From a virus: DNA of 33,515 nt. Position numbers and translations under genes: made by a program. The DNA is taken from IMG/VR virus record IMGVR_UViG_3300032229_000336, positions 1-33,515 of that record. One strand, written 5' to 3'. Below the pieces are notes generated by a model. It did no database searches and had not been told where the DNA came from. It was given only the letters and a program-made list of their open reading frames with translations. Shown here in pieces: positions 1,680 to 33,515 of this stretch; position 1 is the stretch's first letter; every line of letters begins with the position of its first letter.

Positions 1680-3641
1680 ATGGCCGCCGCCGAGCAGCGC
1701 AAACAGTACCAGATCTCCAAGAGCTTCAAGGGGGTCAACACCCAGGCCAATCGCACTGCGATCGACCCGGATGAGTTTGCGTGGCTGGAAAATGTGCAGC
1801 CCATTGGCTTCGGCAATATCAAGTCGATACCCGCACAGACAACCGTTCAGGTGTCGAGCGCGCCGCTGGCGTGGAGCGGGACGGTCGAATCGCTGTACGA
1901 CGCCAACGTCAAAAACAAAGAGTATATCTTTGCGTTTTTTACGAATGGCGGGGCCGAGGCCTACAACGCGACTGATGGCACCAAGGTCACCATTGCCAAT
2001 GCCGGCAAGTTTTCCGCGGCGGGCGTTCGCATCGCGCAGTGGAAGAACGAGCGCATCCTGATCATCGACCCCACCAAGGGGCTCTTTAACTGGGATGGCA
2101 CCAACGTAGTCAGCATTGGCTCAATCTCTGACTACGGCATTACGAATGGCGGATCAGGCTACACGTCTGCGCCTTCGGTGTCGTTCAGTGCGCCCAGTGA
2201 GACGGGCGGCGTGCAGGCAACCGGCTCTGCGGTCATTGTCGCCAACGCTGTTGTGGGCATCAACATCACGGAACCAGGGTCGGGCTACACGTCGCCGCCG
2301 ACCGTGACGTTTGCCGGCGGTGGCGGTGCCAACGCGGCGGTGGTTACCTCCACCCTGACGTTTGCCACGGGCACTGTTGGCTGCATCGTTAAGAGCGGCG
2401 GAACGGGCTACGCTAACTCGTTCGCGGTCACCTTTTCGGGTGGCGGCGGCGCGAACGCCGCGGCCCAAGCAATCGTGTCGGGCGGCGCGGTCACCAAGAT
2501 TATTATGACCAACAGCGGTTCCGGTTACACCTCCGCGCCCACGGCCAACTTGTCGGCTGGCGCGGGCTCTGGTGCGATCGTTGAGGCGGTGGTCACCACT
2601 GAACCCAATACGGACGTGGCGACGTTCAGCGGGCGCGCTTGGGTGTCGCAGGGCCGTACGGTGTTTTACTCGGCGGCGGATAGCTACACCGATTTTGCGT
2701 CCGTGAGCGCCGGCAACATTCTGATCACCGACTCGACGTTGCACACCAATATATCGAGTCTGCTATCGGCCAATAACTTCCTCTACATTTTTGGCGCTGA
2801 CAGCATCAACGTGTTCTCAGATGTGCGCGTTGGTCAAGACGGCGTGACCGTCTTCACGAACACCAATGTGTCGGCGTCCGTAGGCACGAACCTTAAAAAG
2901 AGCGTGTACGCCTACTTCCGAAGCGTTGTGTTTATGAACGAGTACGGCATCTACGCGCTGGTCGGCTCGACCACGAGCAAGCTGTCGGACGCGCTCGACG
3001 GCATCTTCACGCTAATTGATTTTACGCAGCCGGTGTCGGGCGGGCAGGTGCTGGTCAACAACATCCTCTGCGCCGCGTGGTCGTTTACCTACAACGATCC
3101 GGCGGCAGGCCCGCGTCCGATTCAAGCGGTGTTTTTCAACAAGCGTTGGTTCATCACGAGCCAAGGCACGCTGACGAACATCACCAGCGCGCAGGTTGGT
3201 GGTGTCACCAACATTTACGGCACGGGCGGCACCAACCTCATTAAGCTGTACGCCAACAGCGCCTCTGGCACGCCGATCATTATTCGCAGCGCCCTATGGG
3301 CGTTGGGAGATCCGATCCGCGACAAGCAGGCGCTGAAGTTTGGCGTTGAGGCAACGCTGACGACGCCGGCCACGTTGTTGCTGACGGTAGACAGCGAGTA
3401 TGCGTCGAGCCCGCCCTATACGCTCGCGAACCTGATTACCTGGGTAAACAATTCCTTCCAAGCAGTGCCCTGGATCAACAATTCCAGCGTCCAAATTGGT
3501 TGGATTTTGGCGGGCTACCAACTGTATAAATCAGACGCGCAGCAGTACGGGAAATACCTGGGTTTCACGATCACGGCGAATGCGGTGGTGATGACGCTGC
3601 ACACGCTGGAACTGGAACACGAATTGAGAGCGAGGTTCTAA
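1680..3641 (+). CDS. tail hub / stabilisation protein with GSGYTSAP repeats
   Basis: This 653-residue protein begins with a FKGVNTQANRTAIDPDEFAW segment (residues 16-35) typical of P22 gp10-like packaged-DNA stabilisation or tail hub proteins, and it follows the adaptor after two bases. Residues about 150-305 are an inserted repeat region: four units near residues 154, 196, 237 and 276 built on a GSGYTSAPTVTFSGGGG pattern with a period near 41. The C-terminal part, with LTVDSEYASSPP and KYLGFTITA segments, resumes the hub fold. The role in closing the portal channel and holding fibres is inferred from family and order. Confidence 0.78.
   Translation: MAAAEQRKQYQISKSFKGVNTQANRTAIDPDEFAWLENVQPIGFGNIKSIPAQTTVQVSSAPLAWSGTVESLYDANVKNKEYIFAFFTNGGAEAYNATDGTKVTIANAGKFSAAGVRIAQWKNERILIIDPTKGLFNWDGTNVVSIGSISDYGITNGGSGYTSAPSVSFSAPSETGGVQATGSAVIVANAVVGINITEPGSGYTSPPTVTFAGGGGANAAVVTSTLTFATGTVGCIVKSGGTGYANSFAVTFSGGGGANAAAQAIVSGGAVTKIIMTNSGSGYTSAPTANLSAGAGSGAIVEAVVTTEPNTDVATFSGRAWVSQGRTVFYSAADSYTDFASVSAGNILITDSTLHTNISSLLSANNFLYIFGADSINVFSDVRVGQDGVTVFTNTNVSASVGTNLKKSVYAYFRSVVFMNEYGIYALVGSTTSKLSDALDGIFTLIDFTQPVSGGQVLVNNILCAAWSFTYNDPAAGPRPIQAVFFNKRWFITSQGTLTNITSAQVGGVTNIYGTGGTNLIKLYANSASGTPIIIRSALWALGDPIRDKQALKFGVEATLTTPATLLLTVDSEYASSPPYTLANLITWVNNSFQAVPWINNSSVQIGWILAGYQLYKSDAQQYGKYLGFTITANAVVMTLHTLELEHELRARF
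2127..2594 (+). repeat. protein-coding tandem repeats in the tail hub gene
   Basis: Four degenerate units of about 41 codons encode motifs ITNGGSGYTSAP, ITEPGSGYTSPP, VKSGGTGYANSF and MTNSGSGYTSAP, each followed by a short strand and a Gly-Ala-rich turn. The motif is familiar from phage tail and fibre proteins as a small beta module. Here it interrupts the hub. Confidence 0.75.
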
Positions 3642-28430: not shown

Positions 28431-28875
28431 GCGGGACTACAAGTGCGAGCAGCACGGGTTTTTCGAGGCGTGGGAGGCTCAATGCCCGCACGGATGCCTC
28501 GACGGGATCATGATAGTCCACTTACAGGCCCCGAATTACCTATCTGACCGGACCAAGGGCTCTGACCGCACCCTCAGCGGCCTCGCGGACGAGTTTAAGA
28601 TGACCAACATTAAGTCCACGCGGGAGGGCGAGAATCAGGAGGGGTATTTTACCCGGAACAACGCCCCTGCGCCGAAGGAGGCGCCCCCTGAAGCTGGAAG
28701 CGGGGTTATCTGGGGCGGTCAGGGCGGCTTTCAGATGGGGAATATCTTGGGCGGTAATGCGTTCCGCTCTGTGCGTGGCGAAAATGTTGGCTTCAAGCCG
28801 GGTGAGGCTGGTAGGTTGTCCGGGCCCAGGACTGCATCGTATATGCCTGACCATGAGGGCCTGAAGATCAAATGA
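28420..28875 (+). CDS. zinc-ribbon-like phage protein of unknown function
   Basis: ATG 28420 follows GGAGGGG by a short gap and overlaps the previous gene by eleven bases. The 151-residue product opens MAIKRDYKCEQHGFFEAWEA followed by QCPHGC: Cys and His pairs (CxxH, CPHGC) form a likely zinc knuckle. The rest is polar, with a Gly-rich GVIWGGQGGFQMGNILGG segment. The same N-terminal pattern is seen in other podoviruses before the portal gene. The stop overlaps the portal start as ATGA. Confidence 0.8.
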   Translation: MAIKRDYKCEQHGFFEAWEAQCPHGCLDGIMIVHLQAPNYLSDRTKGSDRTLSGLADEFKMTNIKSTREGENQEGYFTRNNAPAPKEAPPEAGSGVIWGGQGGFQMGNILGGNAFRSVRGENVGFKPGEAGRLSGPRTASYMPDHEGLKIK

Positions 28876-30491
28876 TTATCCCGTCGAATGCCGATCAGCG
28901 CGAGGCGTTTTATCTAGATTTGATCGAGAAGTGCTATGCTTCGCGCGATGAGCGGCGGGGTGATTACCAGTCGCTGCGGTCGTACTTCCTGTTTGGCTCT
29001 GGGCCGAACGACTCGCCGGCCCACTACAACAAGATTTACCCGCACATCGACCAGCTTGTGTCGTTCATGTACTCGGCTGACACGACGCGCTTTAGCATCA
29101 GCCTTGGTGCTGCGGTGCCTGAGTCCGAGCATAGCAAGGTGCCGGTTTTGACGGCGGCGCTGAACGACGAGTGGAACAACAGCAACGCGGATCAGGTGTT
29201 TGGCATTGGCCTCACCTGGGCGTTTGTTTATTCGTCGTCCTACATCAAGCTGGTGCGGCGTGCGAACACGATCACGCCGTACATGGTGCATCCCGGCGAT
29301 GTCGGCGTGCTGCGCGAAGACGTGATGTACACGGATCGGCAGGAGGCGCTGGTCCACACCTACTACATCACGCGGTCGGATCTTGCGGCGCGGCTGTATG
29401 CGCACCCGAAGCGGGATCAGTTGCTGTCGCGCGTGACGCAGCAGAAGTACCGCCCGCAGGACATTCCGAACGGCGTGGACAAGATCATCATGTCGCAGGT
29501 GTCGCCTGACATCTACGGCAACGTGAATCTGGATCTGTCGGGCGTGAACCGCATGAAGCCGGTGGTGTCTGAGGACACGATCGAGATGCGGGAGTTGTAC
29601 GTTTGGAACGACGAGATCCGCGACTATCAGGTGGTGACGATCGCCGAGCCTGACGTGGTGATTTACGACCGCCCGAACGAGTCGATGTTCCTGAAGGGCG
29701 AACTGCCGTTCGTTCACATCTGCCCGAACCCGCTGCCTGAGTACTACTGGGGGCAGTCGGAAGTTTCGCGTCTCGTGTACCTGCAAGAGATGCGGAACAA
29801 GCGCATGGGCGAGATCTTGGATCTGCTGTCGAAGCAGGTGAGCCCGCCGACTGCGCTGACCGGCTTTACGGGCATCCTTGACGAGAAGAACTTTGCGCTG
29901 AACCGCGCGGGCGGTTTGCTGGCGACGGACATGCCGAACGCCAAGGTTGACCGCCTTGCTCCGCAGATGCCGCCTGATCTGTTTAGGGAGTTGAACGAGA
30001 TCGACTCGATGTTTGCGGAGGCGTCGGGCATTTCGTCGGTGCTGTCTGGCCGCGGTGAGACGGGTGTGCGGTCGCAGGGTCATGCGTCGCAGTTGGCGCG
30101 CCTTGGTTCGAGCCGCGCGAAGAAGCGCGCGCTGCTGGTCGAGGATTCGCTGGAGAAGATGGCGACCCTCTACCTGAAGGTTATGCAGACGGACGACGCG
30201 ACGGTTTACCGCGACTCGAATGGGATGAAGTTTATCGCGGAGCAGTTTACCAAGGACTTTGTGGTCAAGGTGGACGCTCACAGCAATTCGCCCATTTTCA
30301 TGGAGGATCTGCGGTCGTTGGCCTTCAATCTGTTCAAGGCCCAGGCTATCGACAAGGAGAGCCTGCTTGACTTGCTTGAGCCTCCCATGAAACAGTTGTT
30401 GAAGGACAAGTTGAAGAAGGCCGAGCAGAAGGGTGCCGAGTCGCCCCAACCGCAGGCTTCAGCGCCACCCGCTTTGAAGAGGGCTGGTTAA
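28872..30491 (+). CDS. portal protein
   Basis: The 539-residue protein lies directly after the packaging genes. It has the podoviral portal layout: helical N-terminus with YLDLIEKCYASRDERRGDYQ, a HYNKIYPHIDQLVSFMYSAD segment, a central wing with GELPFVHICPNPLPEYYWGQ and EVSRLVYLQEMRNKRMGEIL, then a long helix with ARLGSSRAKKRALLVEDSLE. A Lys-rich tail ends it. It forms the dodecameric DNA gate at the unique vertex, docking TerL and later the adaptor. The start overlaps the preceding stop as ATGA. Confidence 0.92.
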   Translation: MIIPSNADQREAFYLDLIEKCYASRDERRGDYQSLRSYFLFGSGPNDSPAHYNKIYPHIDQLVSFMYSADTTRFSISLGAAVPESEHSKVPVLTAALNDEWNNSNADQVFGIGLTWAFVYSSSYIKLVRRANTITPYMVHPGDVGVLREDVMYTDRQEALVHTYYITRSDLAARLYAHPKRDQLLSRVTQQKYRPQDIPNGVDKIIMSQVSPDIYGNVNLDLSGVNRMKPVVSEDTIEMRELYVWNDEIRDYQVVTIAEPDVVIYDRPNESMFLKGELPFVHICPNPLPEYYWGQSEVSRLVYLQEMRNKRMGEILDLLSKQVSPPTALTGFTGILDEKNFALNRAGGLLATDMPNAKVDRLAPQMPPDLFRELNEIDSMFAEASGISSVLSGRGETGVRSQGHASQLARLGSSRAKKRALLVEDSLEKMATLYLKVMQTDDATVYRDSNGMKFIAEQFTKDFVVKVDAHSNSPIFMEDLRSLAFNLFKAQAIDKESLLDLLEPPMKQLLKDKLKKAEQKGAESPQPQASAPPALKRAG

Positions 30492-30652
30492 TGCGTGGAA
30501 GCGGGACGATTAGCGGTGACCAACCGCGAGTAACGCAGGGCGATTTGCGGCGTGGTGACGCGCCGGCTTCTCTGCAATACCGCGTGACTTCAATGCGATC
30601 GCTGGATAACAATCGCTCTACGCGCTCCATGGGGCGCGACGGAAGGAGGTGA
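30491..30652 (+). CDS. small Arg-rich protein after the portal gene
   Basis: ATG 30491 overlaps the portal stop as TAATG, giving 53 residues: MRGSGTISGDQPRVTQGDLR, a polar middle and a basic end RSTRSMGRDGRR. The codons at its end form the AAGGAGGTGATT ribosome site of the next peptide. It is probably disordered. Overlap at both ends supports translation; function is not known. Confidence 0.65.
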   Translation: MRGSGTISGDQPRVTQGDLRRGDAPASLQYRVTSMRSLDNNRSTRSMGRDGRR

Positions 30653-30654
30653 TT
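30643..30654 (+). promoter_or_regulatory. near-perfect Shine-Dalgarno sequence
   Basis: AAGGAGGTGATT matches the complement of the bacterial 16S rRNA 3' end over at least eleven positions. The core AGGAGG is nine bases ahead of ATG 30659. Such a long match is unusual for this genome and points to very high expression of a 13-residue peptide. Confidence 0.8.
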
Positions 30655-30658
30655 GTTT

Positions 30659-30700
30659 ATGTACCGTGCGATGCGCAAGGCCAGGAAGACCCGCCGCTAA
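30659..30700 (+). CDS. 13-residue basic peptide MYRAMRKARKTRR
   Basis: The frame is only 14 codons with stop, but has the strongest ribosome site in the genome. Seven of 13 residues are Arg or Lys. Its TAA overlaps the next ATG (TAATG). The peptide could bind nucleic acid or the capsid interior, or the short frame may serve to control translation of later genes. Confidence 0.6.
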   Translation: MYRAMRKARKTRR

Positions 30701-30747
30701 TGCGGATGGTTGAGGGGAACCCACCTCAAACTGAAAGGAGGATCTAA
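30700..30747 (+). CDS. possible 15-residue peptide MRMVEGNPPQTERRI
   Basis: This frame begins in the TAATG overlap with the previous peptide and ends in a TAATG overlap with the next. Its last codons are the AGGAGG ribosome site of the next peptide, so its sequence may be constrained by that rather than by a protein function. It may be a translational bridge. Its own ribosome site is weak. Confidence 0.35.
   Translation: MRMVEGNPPQTERRI
30710..30729 (+). repeat. hairpin between the small peptide genes
   Basis: TTGAGG (30710-30715) pairs with CCTCAA (30724-30729) across an eight-base loop. It lies between two near-perfect ribosome sites. It may regulate access to the second site or stabilise the mRNA. 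No T-run follows, so it is not an intrinsic terminator. Confidence 0.6.
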
Positions 30748-30782
30748 TGGCTCGTCGTCGTGGCCGTAAGGCGAAGCGGTAA
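30747..30782 (+). CDS. 11-residue Arg-rich peptide MARRRGRKAKR
   Basis: AAAGGAGG stands five bases before ATG 30747. Eight of 11 residues are Arg or Lys, like a protamine or a nucleic-acid-binding tail. The combination of an excellent ribosome site, a basic product and the same arrangement 90 bases upstream argues against chance. The product is too short for any domain assignment. Confidence 0.6.
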   Translation: MARRRGRKAKR

Positions 30783-30910
30783 CTAATCCGCGGGGCGAAC
30801 CCGTTGATTCCGCTGTGCGCCGGGGGGACGCACGATGTAAAAATATCCTCCCATTTTATTTTTCTGGACTAGGTTCGTGGCTGTTTGTTACCAAGCCATT
30901 GGAGGTATTT
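30783..30910 (+). other. intergenic region before the proline-rich protein
   Basis: This 128-base spacer is one of the few gaps in the late block. It has a five-pair stem GTGCG/CGCAC (around 30815-30833) with a G6 loop, followed by TAAAAATAT and a T-rich segment. It could hold an RNA-processing site or an internal promoter, but I see no convincing -35/-10 pair. Confidence 0.4.
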
Positions 30911-31438
30911 ATGGCTGCGCCCAATGATCGTCTGATGGAGCTTTTGGCTCGCGGCCAGAACGCGCCTCGGGCTGGTGCTGCGCCTATGCCTGAGCCGACG
31001 CCCAATGATGTGACGCCGCCGATGGGCGCGCCCATGATGACCCCTGAGCCAAAGATGGGGAACAAGGAAGCTGCGCTGATCAACGTTGGTCTGGCGCTTG
31101 ATCTTCTTGAGCAGTCTTTGCCTGCCCTTGGTTCTGATTCGGACGAGGGCACGAAGGTTATGGCAGCGGTGAAGTCCCTCACGGGTATGATGCAGCCGCG
31201 GCAGGCTAAGACCGGCGAACTGAAGAATGCTGAGATCCTTCAGCTTTTGCAGAGCCTTCCGCAAGCGGGTGGCGCAACGCCTGAAGGTCGCGCTATGGCG
31301 GCAGCGCCGCCGATCCCTGGTATGGCAGGTGGGGCAATGCAGCCTCCGATGCCGCCAATGCCACCTCCGGGTGGCGCTGCTATGCCGCCGGCTGGCGGTG
31401 TCCCGATGCCGCCCGGTGGCGGCGCCATGCCTATGTAG
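30911..31438 (+). CDS. Pro/Met/Gly-rich protein, possible assembly factor
   Basis: ATG 30911 follows GGAGGTATTT. The 175-residue product has a Pro-rich N-terminus, a central helical domain (KEAALINVGLALDLLEQSLP, then KVMAAVKSLTGMM and LKNAEILQLLQSLPQ) and a C-terminal tail of repeated PPMPP, PPGGAAMPP and GGAMPM units. It lies between portal and scaffold and may help head assembly. No family is recognised. Confidence 0.78.
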   Translation: MAAPNDRLMELLARGQNAPRAGAAPMPEPTPNDVTPPMGAPMMTPEPKMGNKEAALINVGLALDLLEQSLPALGSDSDEGTKVMAAVKSLTGMMQPRQAKTGELKNAEILQLLQSLPQAGGATPEGRAMAAAPPIPGMAGGAMQPPMPPMPPPGGAAMPPAGGVPMPPGGGAMPM

Positions 31439-31651: not shown

Positions 31652-32191
31652 ATGTCGCTCGAAGATGTGTCGCCGGAAGCGCGGGATGAGCTTGCTCTCC
31701 TTGCGCGCCGGCTGTCGGAGAATCCTGCCACCCGCAAGGATTTCCTTCGTCTGACCAAGCGGGTTAGCCCAGATCTGCCGATTCCCGAGCTTGAGCTTGA
31801 GGATACGGTCACCAAGGCAAGCACGGCTGCGCAGCAGCGCATCGAGCGCCTTGAAGCCCAGCTTCGTGAGCGGGATGCCGTAAGCGAGCTTGAGAAGCGC
31901 CGTCAGTCGCTGGTCAAGAAGGGCAAGATTTCTGATGAGGCCGAGATCGAGCAGGTCGAAAAGATTATGCTTGAGAAGGGCATCACGAACCACGAAACCG
32001 CAGCGGAATACCATCGCTACATGCGTGAGGCTGCTGCGCCGAGTCCCATGGGTTACAACCGTAACGTCATGGACAACACGGCGCGCGCCACGCTGGCGAA
32101 CTACTGGAAGAATCCGCAGGTTGCGGCACGAGATGAGGCGTCGAAGGCCCTAATGGAACTGCGCGGGAAGCCGCGTCCCATTGGGCTTTAG
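31652..32191 (+). CDS. scaffolding protein
   Basis: The 179-residue protein lies directly before the major capsid gene, with AGGAGTAGGGGAAT ahead of ATG 31652. It is highly charged and helical, with a coiled coil STAAQQRIERLEAQLRERD (around 57-75), KRRQSLVKKGKISDEAEIEQ and a C-terminal helix rich in Ala and Arg. Podoviral scaffolds share this size, composition and place, and guide capsid assembly. The call rests on these features and not on sequence identity. Confidence 0.78.
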   Translation: MSLEDVSPEARDELALLARRLSENPATRKDFLRLTKRVSPDLPIPELELEDTVTKASTAAQQRIERLEAQLRERDAVSELEKRRQSLVKKGKISDEAEIEQVEKIMLEKGITNHETAAEYHRYMREAAAPSPMGYNRNVMDNTARATLANYWKNPQVAARDEASKALMELRGKPRPIGL

Positions 32192-32234: not shown

Positions 32235-33245
32235 ATGCCGATCGGTGGTGGTATTCTTCCGGCGACGGGTAGTACGCAATTCACCGAGCTTACGTATGTA
32301 ACTCGGCGCGCGTTTATCCCGAAGCTGGTTGTTCAGCTTTATAACTCGACGCCGCTCATGGCGGCGCTGATCGCCAATAGCCAGTCGGCTACGGGCGGTG
32401 TGTCCTCTGTCACCGTGCCGGTGCAGGGCGCGCAGTTTGTTAACGCGCAGTGGTCTGACTACAGCGGCAGCTTCACGCAGCCGTCTGTGCAGCAGGGCGC
32501 GTATAACGCCGAGTTCAACCTCAAGCTCATGATTGCCCCTGTGCCGTTCCTCGGCATGGAAGGCGCTGTGCAGCAGGACCACGCGATCATCCCGCTCATC
32601 GAGGCTCGCATGAACGATGCGACCAACGTGATGATGGATGGTATGGCGACCGCGCTGTACAATAACACCACTAACCAGCAGGCCTTTACCGGCCTTCCGG
32701 CGGCGGTGGACGATGGCACCGGCACGGCGACGTACGGTAACATCAACCGCTCCACCTACACGTGGTGGAAGTCGAAGCAGTACGCGGCTGGCTCGGTGAA
32801 CCCGACCCGCCAAAACGTGCTTCAGTACATCAGCGGCACCGTGAAGAACGGCGCTGAGGTGCCGACCTTCGGCGTTTGCGGCTTTGGCACGTGGACCCTG
32901 CTCGCGCAGGACTACGTTGGTCAGGAGCAGTACGTCATCACGCCGGGTTCCGGCTTTGATGGCGATGCTAATGGCCCGCAGGCCGCGTTCCGCGCCCTGA
33001 TGGTCGCTGGCGTGCCGATTTACCCCGATCCGTACTGCCCTGAGGGGGTCATGTACTTCCTCAACACGAACTACCTGTCGCTGTACATCCACGACCAGGG
33101 TTCGTTCGTGTTCACGGGCTTTGAATCCACTCTGCCGAACTGGCAGATTGGCTATGTTGGTGCCGTTCTCATGATCGCGGAGCTTGTAAATACCAAGCCC
33201 AAGGCCATGACAAAGGTCACCGGCTACAACAGCCTGTCGATCTGA
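32235..33245 (+). CDS. major capsid protein (HK97-fold)
   Basis: The 336-residue protein follows the scaffold, with GGAGATAAACC before ATG 32235. It opens MPIGGGILPATGSTQFTELT and has ARMNDATNVMMDGMATALYN (around 127-146, the likely spine helix region), YGNINRSTYTWWKSKQYAAG and GVPIYPDPYCPEGVMYFLNT, a pattern typical of phage capsid proteins. It builds the icosahedral shell. Its stop is followed by the decoration-like gene that spans the circle junction. Confidence 0.9.
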   Translation: MPIGGGILPATGSTQFTELTYVTRRAFIPKLVVQLYNSTPLMAALIANSQSATGGVSSVTVPVQGAQFVNAQWSDYSGSFTQPSVQQGAYNAEFNLKLMIAPVPFLGMEGAVQQDHAIIPLIEARMNDATNVMMDGMATALYNNTTNQQAFTGLPAAVDDGTGTATYGNINRSTYTWWKSKQYAAGSVNPTRQNVLQYISGTVKNGAEVPTFGVCGFGTWTLLAQDYVGQEQYVITPGSGFDGDANGPQAAFRALMVAGVPIYPDPYCPEGVMYFLNTNYLSLYIHDQGSFVFTGFESTLPNWQIGYVGAVLMIAELVNTKPKAMTKVTGYNSLSI

Positions 33246-33258
33246 GGAGGATTGCACA

Positions 33259-33515
33259 ATGGCTCTCGGCCTTAACAAGATCCTCGTCGCAAACGTCTCC
33301 GCGAACACTGCCTCGGCTTATCTTCAGCCGGTCAGCGTGGCGAATGTGGGTGCCGGCAACTCCACTGCGATGCTTAACTCGCAGTTTATCCCGGCTGGCA
33401 CCTACCTGATGCTGCCCGCGGCGAACGTCACGATCGAGGTGAACAACTACACGGGCACCGCGAATAGCTGGTCAACGCTTCTCGCCAACAACACTGGTGG
33501 CACGCTGATCTCGGA
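33259..33515 (+). CDS. putative capsid decoration or head protein, 5' part (continues at base 1)
   Basis: The start codon ATG follows a GAGGAGG Shine-Dalgarno 13 bases after the major capsid protein stop. The protein is cut by the window edge and continues at bases 2-223. Joined over the circle it is 118 residues, opening MALGLNKILVANVSANTAS. It is rich in Thr, Asn, Val, Ala and Gly with few charged residues, a composition typical of beta-rich virion surface proteins. Its place directly after the capsid gene suggests a decoration or head-stabilising protein. That role is inferred from position; I recognise no named domain. Confidence 0.85.
   Translation, partial: MALGLNKILVANVSANTASAYLQPVSVANVGAGNSTAMLNSQFIPAGTYLMLPAANVTIEVNNYTGTANSWSTLLANNTGGTLIS
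33393..33515. repeat. terminal direct repeat, right copy
   Basis: This is an exact copy of bases 1-123. Collapsing it gives a circle of about 33,392 bp. The reading frame entering at 33259 continues without a break into the frame that ends at 223, which confirms the join. Confidence 0.97.

Follow-up and report, generated by a model that had tools for sequence, protein, structure and literature searches.

Conserved genes of 10–15 codons encoding arginine- and lysine-rich peptides between the portal and scaffold genes of a group of uncultured phages

The adenovirus core peptide mu (or X) is short and Arg-rich and accompanies packaged dsDNA, and protein J of phiX174 has a length of about 24–40 residues. 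Viral nucleic-acid-condensing proteins similar in composition to the peptides described below are known elsewhere (PMC13386984, PMC7096446, PMC6669607). In phiX174, the replicative form DNA is covered by approximately 120 copies of J, which also has a guiding role for the genome inside the virion (PMC13386984). A survey has shown that tailed phages cluster apart from the viruses that balance the charge of the genome by that of the capsid, with polyamines and ions being named as other counter-charges (PMC7096446). Here we describe a large group of phages, uncultured and mostly from freshwater, that carry, in the head gene cluster, two or three genes of 10–15 codons each, the predicted products of which are dominated by arginine and lysine.

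The locus lies in a virus record of 33,515 bp, the whole of which is referred to here as the window; a direct terminal repeat of 123 bp (positions 1–123 and 33393–33515) is what a circularly closed assembly should show. The genes of interest follow the order terminase, two small genes, portal, orf53, ORF A, ORF B, a 175-aa protein, a 61-aa protein, a putative scaffold and the capsid protein. An earlier reading of the DNA, made from the sequence only, had drawn attention to four linked short frames of 53, 13, 15 and 11 codons downstream of the portal gene. All four exist where it had placed them; TAATG overlaps join the portal gene to orf53, A to the 15-codon frame, and that frame to B. The features of the region are as follows:

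28872..30491, plus strand: portal protein, the upstream neighbour (Pfam SU10_portal, E 1.3e-11; PHROG portal).
30491..30652, plus strand: orf53, about 49–61 aa with a GDQPR motif; TAATG-coupled to the portal gene and present in most relatives.
30643..30654, plus strand: Shine-Dalgarno (SD) sequence of ORF A (AAGGAGGTGATT), the top of 41 scored starts.
30659..30700, plus strand: ORF A, 13 aa, MYRAMRKARKTRR; in 76/76 readable loci, with dN/dS of 0.03–0.20 and recovery in an SD-free pattern scan.
30700..30747 (stop included), plus strand: 15-codon frame between A and B, a spacer and not a gene; frame not retained in relatives, weak SD of −4.3.
30734..30741, plus strand: SD sequence of ORF B (AAAGGAGG), conserved in relatives.
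30747..30782, plus strand: ORF B, 11 aa, MARRRGRKAKR; in 74/76 readable loci, with recovery in pattern scans and a capsid-like synonymous rate.
30785..30809, plus strand: hairpin 1, directly 3' of ORF B, from folding; stem kept with changed sequence in relatives (by eye).
30814..30852, plus strand: H-type pseudoknot; 23 distinct relatives have the same geometry, but their paired sequences differ.
30814–30819/30829–30834 and 30822–30828/30846–30852, plus strand: stems 1 and 2 of the pseudoknot, from a per-sequence search.
30911..31438, plus strand: 175-aa protein, the next gene.
31652..32191, plus strand: putative scaffold protein, named by position; conserved, with no family match.
32235..33245, plus strand: major capsid protein (PHROG 9953, major head protein, E 4e-35).

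A gene further along the window matches Pfam SU10_adaptor; together with the SU10_portal match, this indicates that the group is distantly related to the SU10-kind podoviruses. Neither orf53 nor the putative scaffold matches any family in Pfam or PHROG. In tblastn searches the window's portal found no match among isolate phages, and its only matches among GenBank phages were two circular genomes of uncultured phages from Manatee Spring (MW202825 and MW202753); a megablast comparison with annotated phage records returned no match for the region. Genome contigs were searched with two portals for hosts or prophages, and none was found. Elsewhere in the window (1680–3641), a long protein with Gly-rich repeated segments matches many phage structural protein families.

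ORFs A and B are marked by their ribosome-binding sites. The SD of ORF A, which is formed by the last codons and stop of orf53 (GGA AGG AGG TGA), pairs with the anti-SD at −13.0 kcal/mol, the strongest value among 41 scored start regions of the window, and that of ORF B at −11.6, within the top four, as against only −6.6 for the major capsid gene. Both had been described as far stronger than the sites of other genes; they are strong, but a few other genes have comparable ones. When K/R-rich ORFs of 8–20 aa with GGAGG or AGGAG upstream were sought, A and B were the only ones in the window, and the same criterion yielded none in 60 dinucleotide shuffles of it. A simple scan of positions 30400–31000 for sigma-70 promoters and terminators returned none.

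A portal search recovered 80 relatives with 67–86% identity, which, once the window and both GenBank genomes are added, makes 83 loci. Seventy-six of these are readable, the others being four contigs that end inside the portal gene, two that end just after it, and L050, which carries an inserted 247-aa ORF ahead of orf53 (about 100–860 nt past the portal), with the tiny-ORF block shifted beyond it. ORF A is present in all 76 readable portal–scaffold gaps and ORF B, with a length of 10–14 aa in the relatives, in 74. The two loci lacking B are L078, where the contig stops 350 nt past the portal, and L049, which has the single peptide MYKSMMRMKGRKARR. This peptide, about 190 nt past the portal stop, resembles a fusion of A with a B/C-type peptide, as if by deletion between repeats. 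Approximately 20 loci possess a second B-type ORF, here termed ORF C, which is almost always MRRKGRKARR and is absent from the window; this third copy, found in many relatives, and a structured RNA directly 3' of the tiny ORFs go beyond what the earlier reading had noticed.

Across the relatives, the frames of A and B and their ribosome sites are conserved in the portal–scaffold gap. The frames are kept while the spacers between them diverge, which is the opposite of the pattern, spacing retained and frames lost, that the sequence-only reading had named as speaking against its own proposal. A and B are real tiny genes overlooked by gene callers; both are present but unannotated in MW202825 and MW202753. 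The portal–scaffold gap of these genomes bears annotated minus-strand hypothetical genes, which are probably spurious. The proposed chain of Arg-rich genes needs to be shortened, however: the 15-codon frame is not conserved in relatives and its SD is weak, and orf53, though conserved, belongs to a family that is not Arg-rich.

The specificity of the association emerged from degenerate back-translated patterns, which were scanned through the 2.9 million viral contigs of IMG/VR. All 68 stretches matching an SD plus an MRRKGRK-like pattern, all 57 matching an MYK-x-VKR-like pattern with no SD required, and all 30 matching an SD plus a MARR-x-GRKA-like pattern lie in the portal–scaffold gap of phages of this group, and an SD-like sequence occurs at every site of these three, including those of the SD-free ORF A pattern. 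A MARKARK-like pattern, again with no SD required, matched 18 stretches, of which 13 are in the gap, all with an SD; the other five show the background, as they are unrelated low-complexity protein starts outside recognised head clusters, with no kept SD. Beyond the pattern-fixed positions, the residues and stop codons of the matches agree too.

ORFs A and B evolve as protein-coding genes, a conclusion that we regard as firm. Changes were counted by parsimony on the portal tree for 69 distinct sequences, with an expected synonymous fraction of 0.24–0.30. For ORF A, the MYKSVKR type shows 27 synonymous (S) and 2 nonsynonymous (N) changes in the seven codons after the start (p 7e-14) and the window's clade S=18, N=7, with dN/dS of 0.03–0.20 and p from 2e-6 to 7e-14; ORF B is under weaker constraint than A (dN/dS 0.38–0.61, p 0.002–0.04; S=21, N=19 for its main type) and ORF C has S=3, N=0 (p 0.03), all of these p-values being indicative only, given the small counts on 10–15 codons and the relatedness of the sequences. 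The commonest replacement in B is K to R (14/38), and there is no acidic residue (D/E) in any of the distinct peptides of A (26), B (24) and C (3), in which K+R make up 46–70%.

In codon usage, CGA, AGA and AGG are absent from B and C and almost absent from A, and CGT/CGC, AAG and GGT/GGC are favoured by A, B, C and the capsid gene alike. B changes more slowly at synonymous sites than the portal gene, but the capsid gene is about as slow on the same tips; selection on codons is enough to account for this, without a further function at the RNA level. High expression, as had been suggested, is in keeping with the window's best SD and a capsid-like codon bias, and A and B are probably strongly expressed.

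More divergent loci provide a further perspective. In L133, with a portal 32% identical, a terminator-like hairpin of the intrinsic type follows the portal and precedes B (MRRKGRKAKR), the stop of which overlaps the start of the 175-aa homologue in a TAATG coupling; orf53 and A were not found in this locus. In L203 (portal 52% identical), where the portal gene too is trailed by a terminator-like hairpin, B (MARKARKSRKAKR) is on its own in front of another gene. In both loci B remains beside head genes, although the terminator parts it from the portal. The retention of B across different transcription layouts implies that a trans-acting peptide, and not local RNA, is kept. The similarity of the L133 and L203 peptides is partly due to selection by the search, since the patterns used fix part of the peptide; the C-terminal residues not fixed by the patterns, and the stops, still agree. 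In L146, L147, L149 and L150 no convincing ORF of this kind follows the portal, but the next head gene was not recognised there, so such genes may have been missed.

A conserved hairpin and pseudoknot (30785–30852 in the window) sit 3' of the last tiny ORF and before the next gene. The pseudoknot is built of a stem 1 of 5–7 bp, a loop 1 of 1–3 nt and a stem 2 of 7–8 bp, with no loop 2 and an AU-rich loop 3 of 7–12 nt. In a permissive search of 44 sequences, the score of the real sequence was reached by 39 of 880 shuffles, most of these stemming from sequences with an interrupted stem 2. Under strict geometry, the arm pairs of the 23 distinct sequences come in 14 versions for stem 1 and 12 for stem 2, and full pairing is seen for just 12–15% of swapped arms; this combination points to compensatory change. 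Pair counts on a MAFFT alignment gave no covariation above controls, as arms of differing length fall out of register there, and Rfam at gathering thresholds found nothing in the window. Inspection by eye revealed, in many relatives, a TTGACA promoter-like box directly after the pseudoknot, with a TATA-like box 17 nt beyond it in L071, L074 and L080; in some relatives with the TTGACA box, a plain strong hairpin replaces the pseudoknot. The pseudoknot probably marks or shields the 3' end of the mRNA upstream of it, an effect that would also favour peptide output. The A–B region itself folds no better than its shuffles (z 0.2). Upstream of B's SD, L082, L083, L080 and L203 share the motif GGG..TGGCTGC..CCC, with GTGGCC next in most, and this may be a second structured RNA.

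As the best reading of these observations, we propose with moderate confidence a protamine-like role in the head for A and B, and for C where present. As separate and apparently strongly translated genes, they would furnish Arg/Lys-dominated peptides of 10–15 residues along with the head proteins. These would bind nucleic acid or the negatively charged capsid interior, and could serve as protamine-like counter-ions that enter the head with the genome or are loaded onto it, or could line the capsid like protein J of phiX174. Coding conservation, position in the head cluster, charge, SD strength and codon bias support such a role, under which the peptides are predicted to bind DNA and to be present in the virion. 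Against it stand the motor by which tailed phages pump their DNA, their separation from viruses whose capsid charge tracks genome charge (PMC7096446), the lack of room for such genes in SU10 and phiEco32, to whose portal family the portal is related by Pfam, and the dN/dS of B, which is less extreme than that of A; furthermore, we know of no packaged DNA-binding protein as short as ten residues. The near-fixed start M-Y-[KR] of A hints at a protein partner, and hence A and B may differ in role. Only tentatively do we extend this to the more specific claim that the tailed phages of this group encode true mini-protamines packaged with the DNA, from genes of 10–15 codons in up to three copies, which would supply counter-charge or control of ejection.

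Ranking next is a function in structure or head assembly, in which A and B would attach to the portal, the scaffold or the capsid protein and serve there as pegs, cement or nucleators, with a charge meant for protein contact and not for DNA. The placement of the genes between portal and scaffold fits such a function, and in A the start just mentioned and the conserved non-basic positions suggest a specific partner. However, B is almost pure K/R/A/G and its commonest swaps are K to R, which fits charge better than shape, and we consider this explanation unlikely. Late in infection, the peptides might instead bind a component of the host, be it RNA, the ribosome, the nucleoid or an enzyme. Phage proteins that are small and basic are often directed at the host's machinery, and conservation in different layouts implies a trans-acting peptide; yet the peptide genes are fixed in the head cluster at every locus found, with none found elsewhere, and a host target appears distinctly improbable.

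We attach similarly little, or slightly less, weight to the view that these are cis-acting leader or coupling ORFs, in which it is the act of translating the Arg/Lys codons that regulates an RNA fold or the gene that follows, the peptide itself going unused. The hairpins and pseudoknot directly downstream, and the TAATG coupling of ORF B to the next gene in L133, are in its favour. Running counter to it are the selection on amino acids, the use of common rather than rare codons, the two or three copies, the TTGACA promoter-like box after the pseudoknot in many relatives, the absence of coupling in the window, in which 128 nt separate the end of B from the next start, and the persistence of the peptide while the layout varies. 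An amino-acid leader peptide or attenuator was considered as a candidate and rejected in view of the mixed K/R content, the common codons and a gene order that changes relative to terminators while the peptide stays. Finally, a non-coding RNA or DNA element with the frames as mere by-products would accord with the adjoining conserved RNA structure and with the slowness of B at synonymous sites relative to the portal, but is largely refuted, and very improbable, in the face of the in-frame excess of synonymous changes, a synonymous rate of B near that of the capsid gene, an A–B fold no better than shuffles, and frames that stay while spacers diverge.

With representatives on more than 100 phage contigs, and invisible to gene callers, A and B would rank among the shortest conserved protein genes known. 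Trypsin-based virion proteomics would miss them, because trypsin reduces K/R peptides to pieces only one to a few residues long. If packaged, they would constitute an exception to the assumption that motor-driven tailed phages need no condensing proteins, and two separable peptides would offer a simple test system for the effect of charge neutralisation on packaging pressure and on ejection. Should they be true mini-protamines, peptides would do here what polyamines and metal ions do in other tailed phages.

Among described phages, SU10 and phiEco32 (Kuravirus) share with this group the Pfam SU10_portal and SU10_adaptor matches and the order terminase, portal, scaffold and capsid. They differ in having 77-kb genomes and a next gene that begins 9 nt after the portal, which leaves no room for the tiny ORFs. 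The Kuravirus head module, as represented by SU10, was rejected as a counterpart, given that only the portal and adaptor profiles match and that tblastn of the portal finds nothing among isolate phages. As unannotated short conserved phage genes, A and B also resemble the contents of small-gene catalogues. Fremin et al. (2022) reportedly catalogued small genes of phages and microbiomes. GMSC covers proteins of 9–99 aa predicted by a modified Prodigal, with recovery falling drastically for 20-aa sequences (PMC11364881). Some peptides of the A/B type may sit unnamed in either catalogue; within the literature covered, which excludes most subscription journals, we found no report of conserved basic genes of 10–15 residues in tailed phages.

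The likeness to protein J of phiX174 is that of a very basic small viral protein produced alongside head proteins. J, however, belongs to an ssDNA phage without the packaging motor of tailed phages, and at 10–15 residues no claim of homology is possible, A and B being too short for homology statistics and for family libraries that start at 20 aa. The baculovirus P6.9 is comparable as a short Arg-rich protein that accompanies packaged dsDNA (PMC6669607). Both it and mu/X come from eukaryotic viruses and are longer than A and B, and mu is cut from a precursor, in contrast to the separate tiny ORFs A and B, each with its own SD. J, mu and P6.9 perform the function proposed here, in viruses that are unlike the tailed phages.
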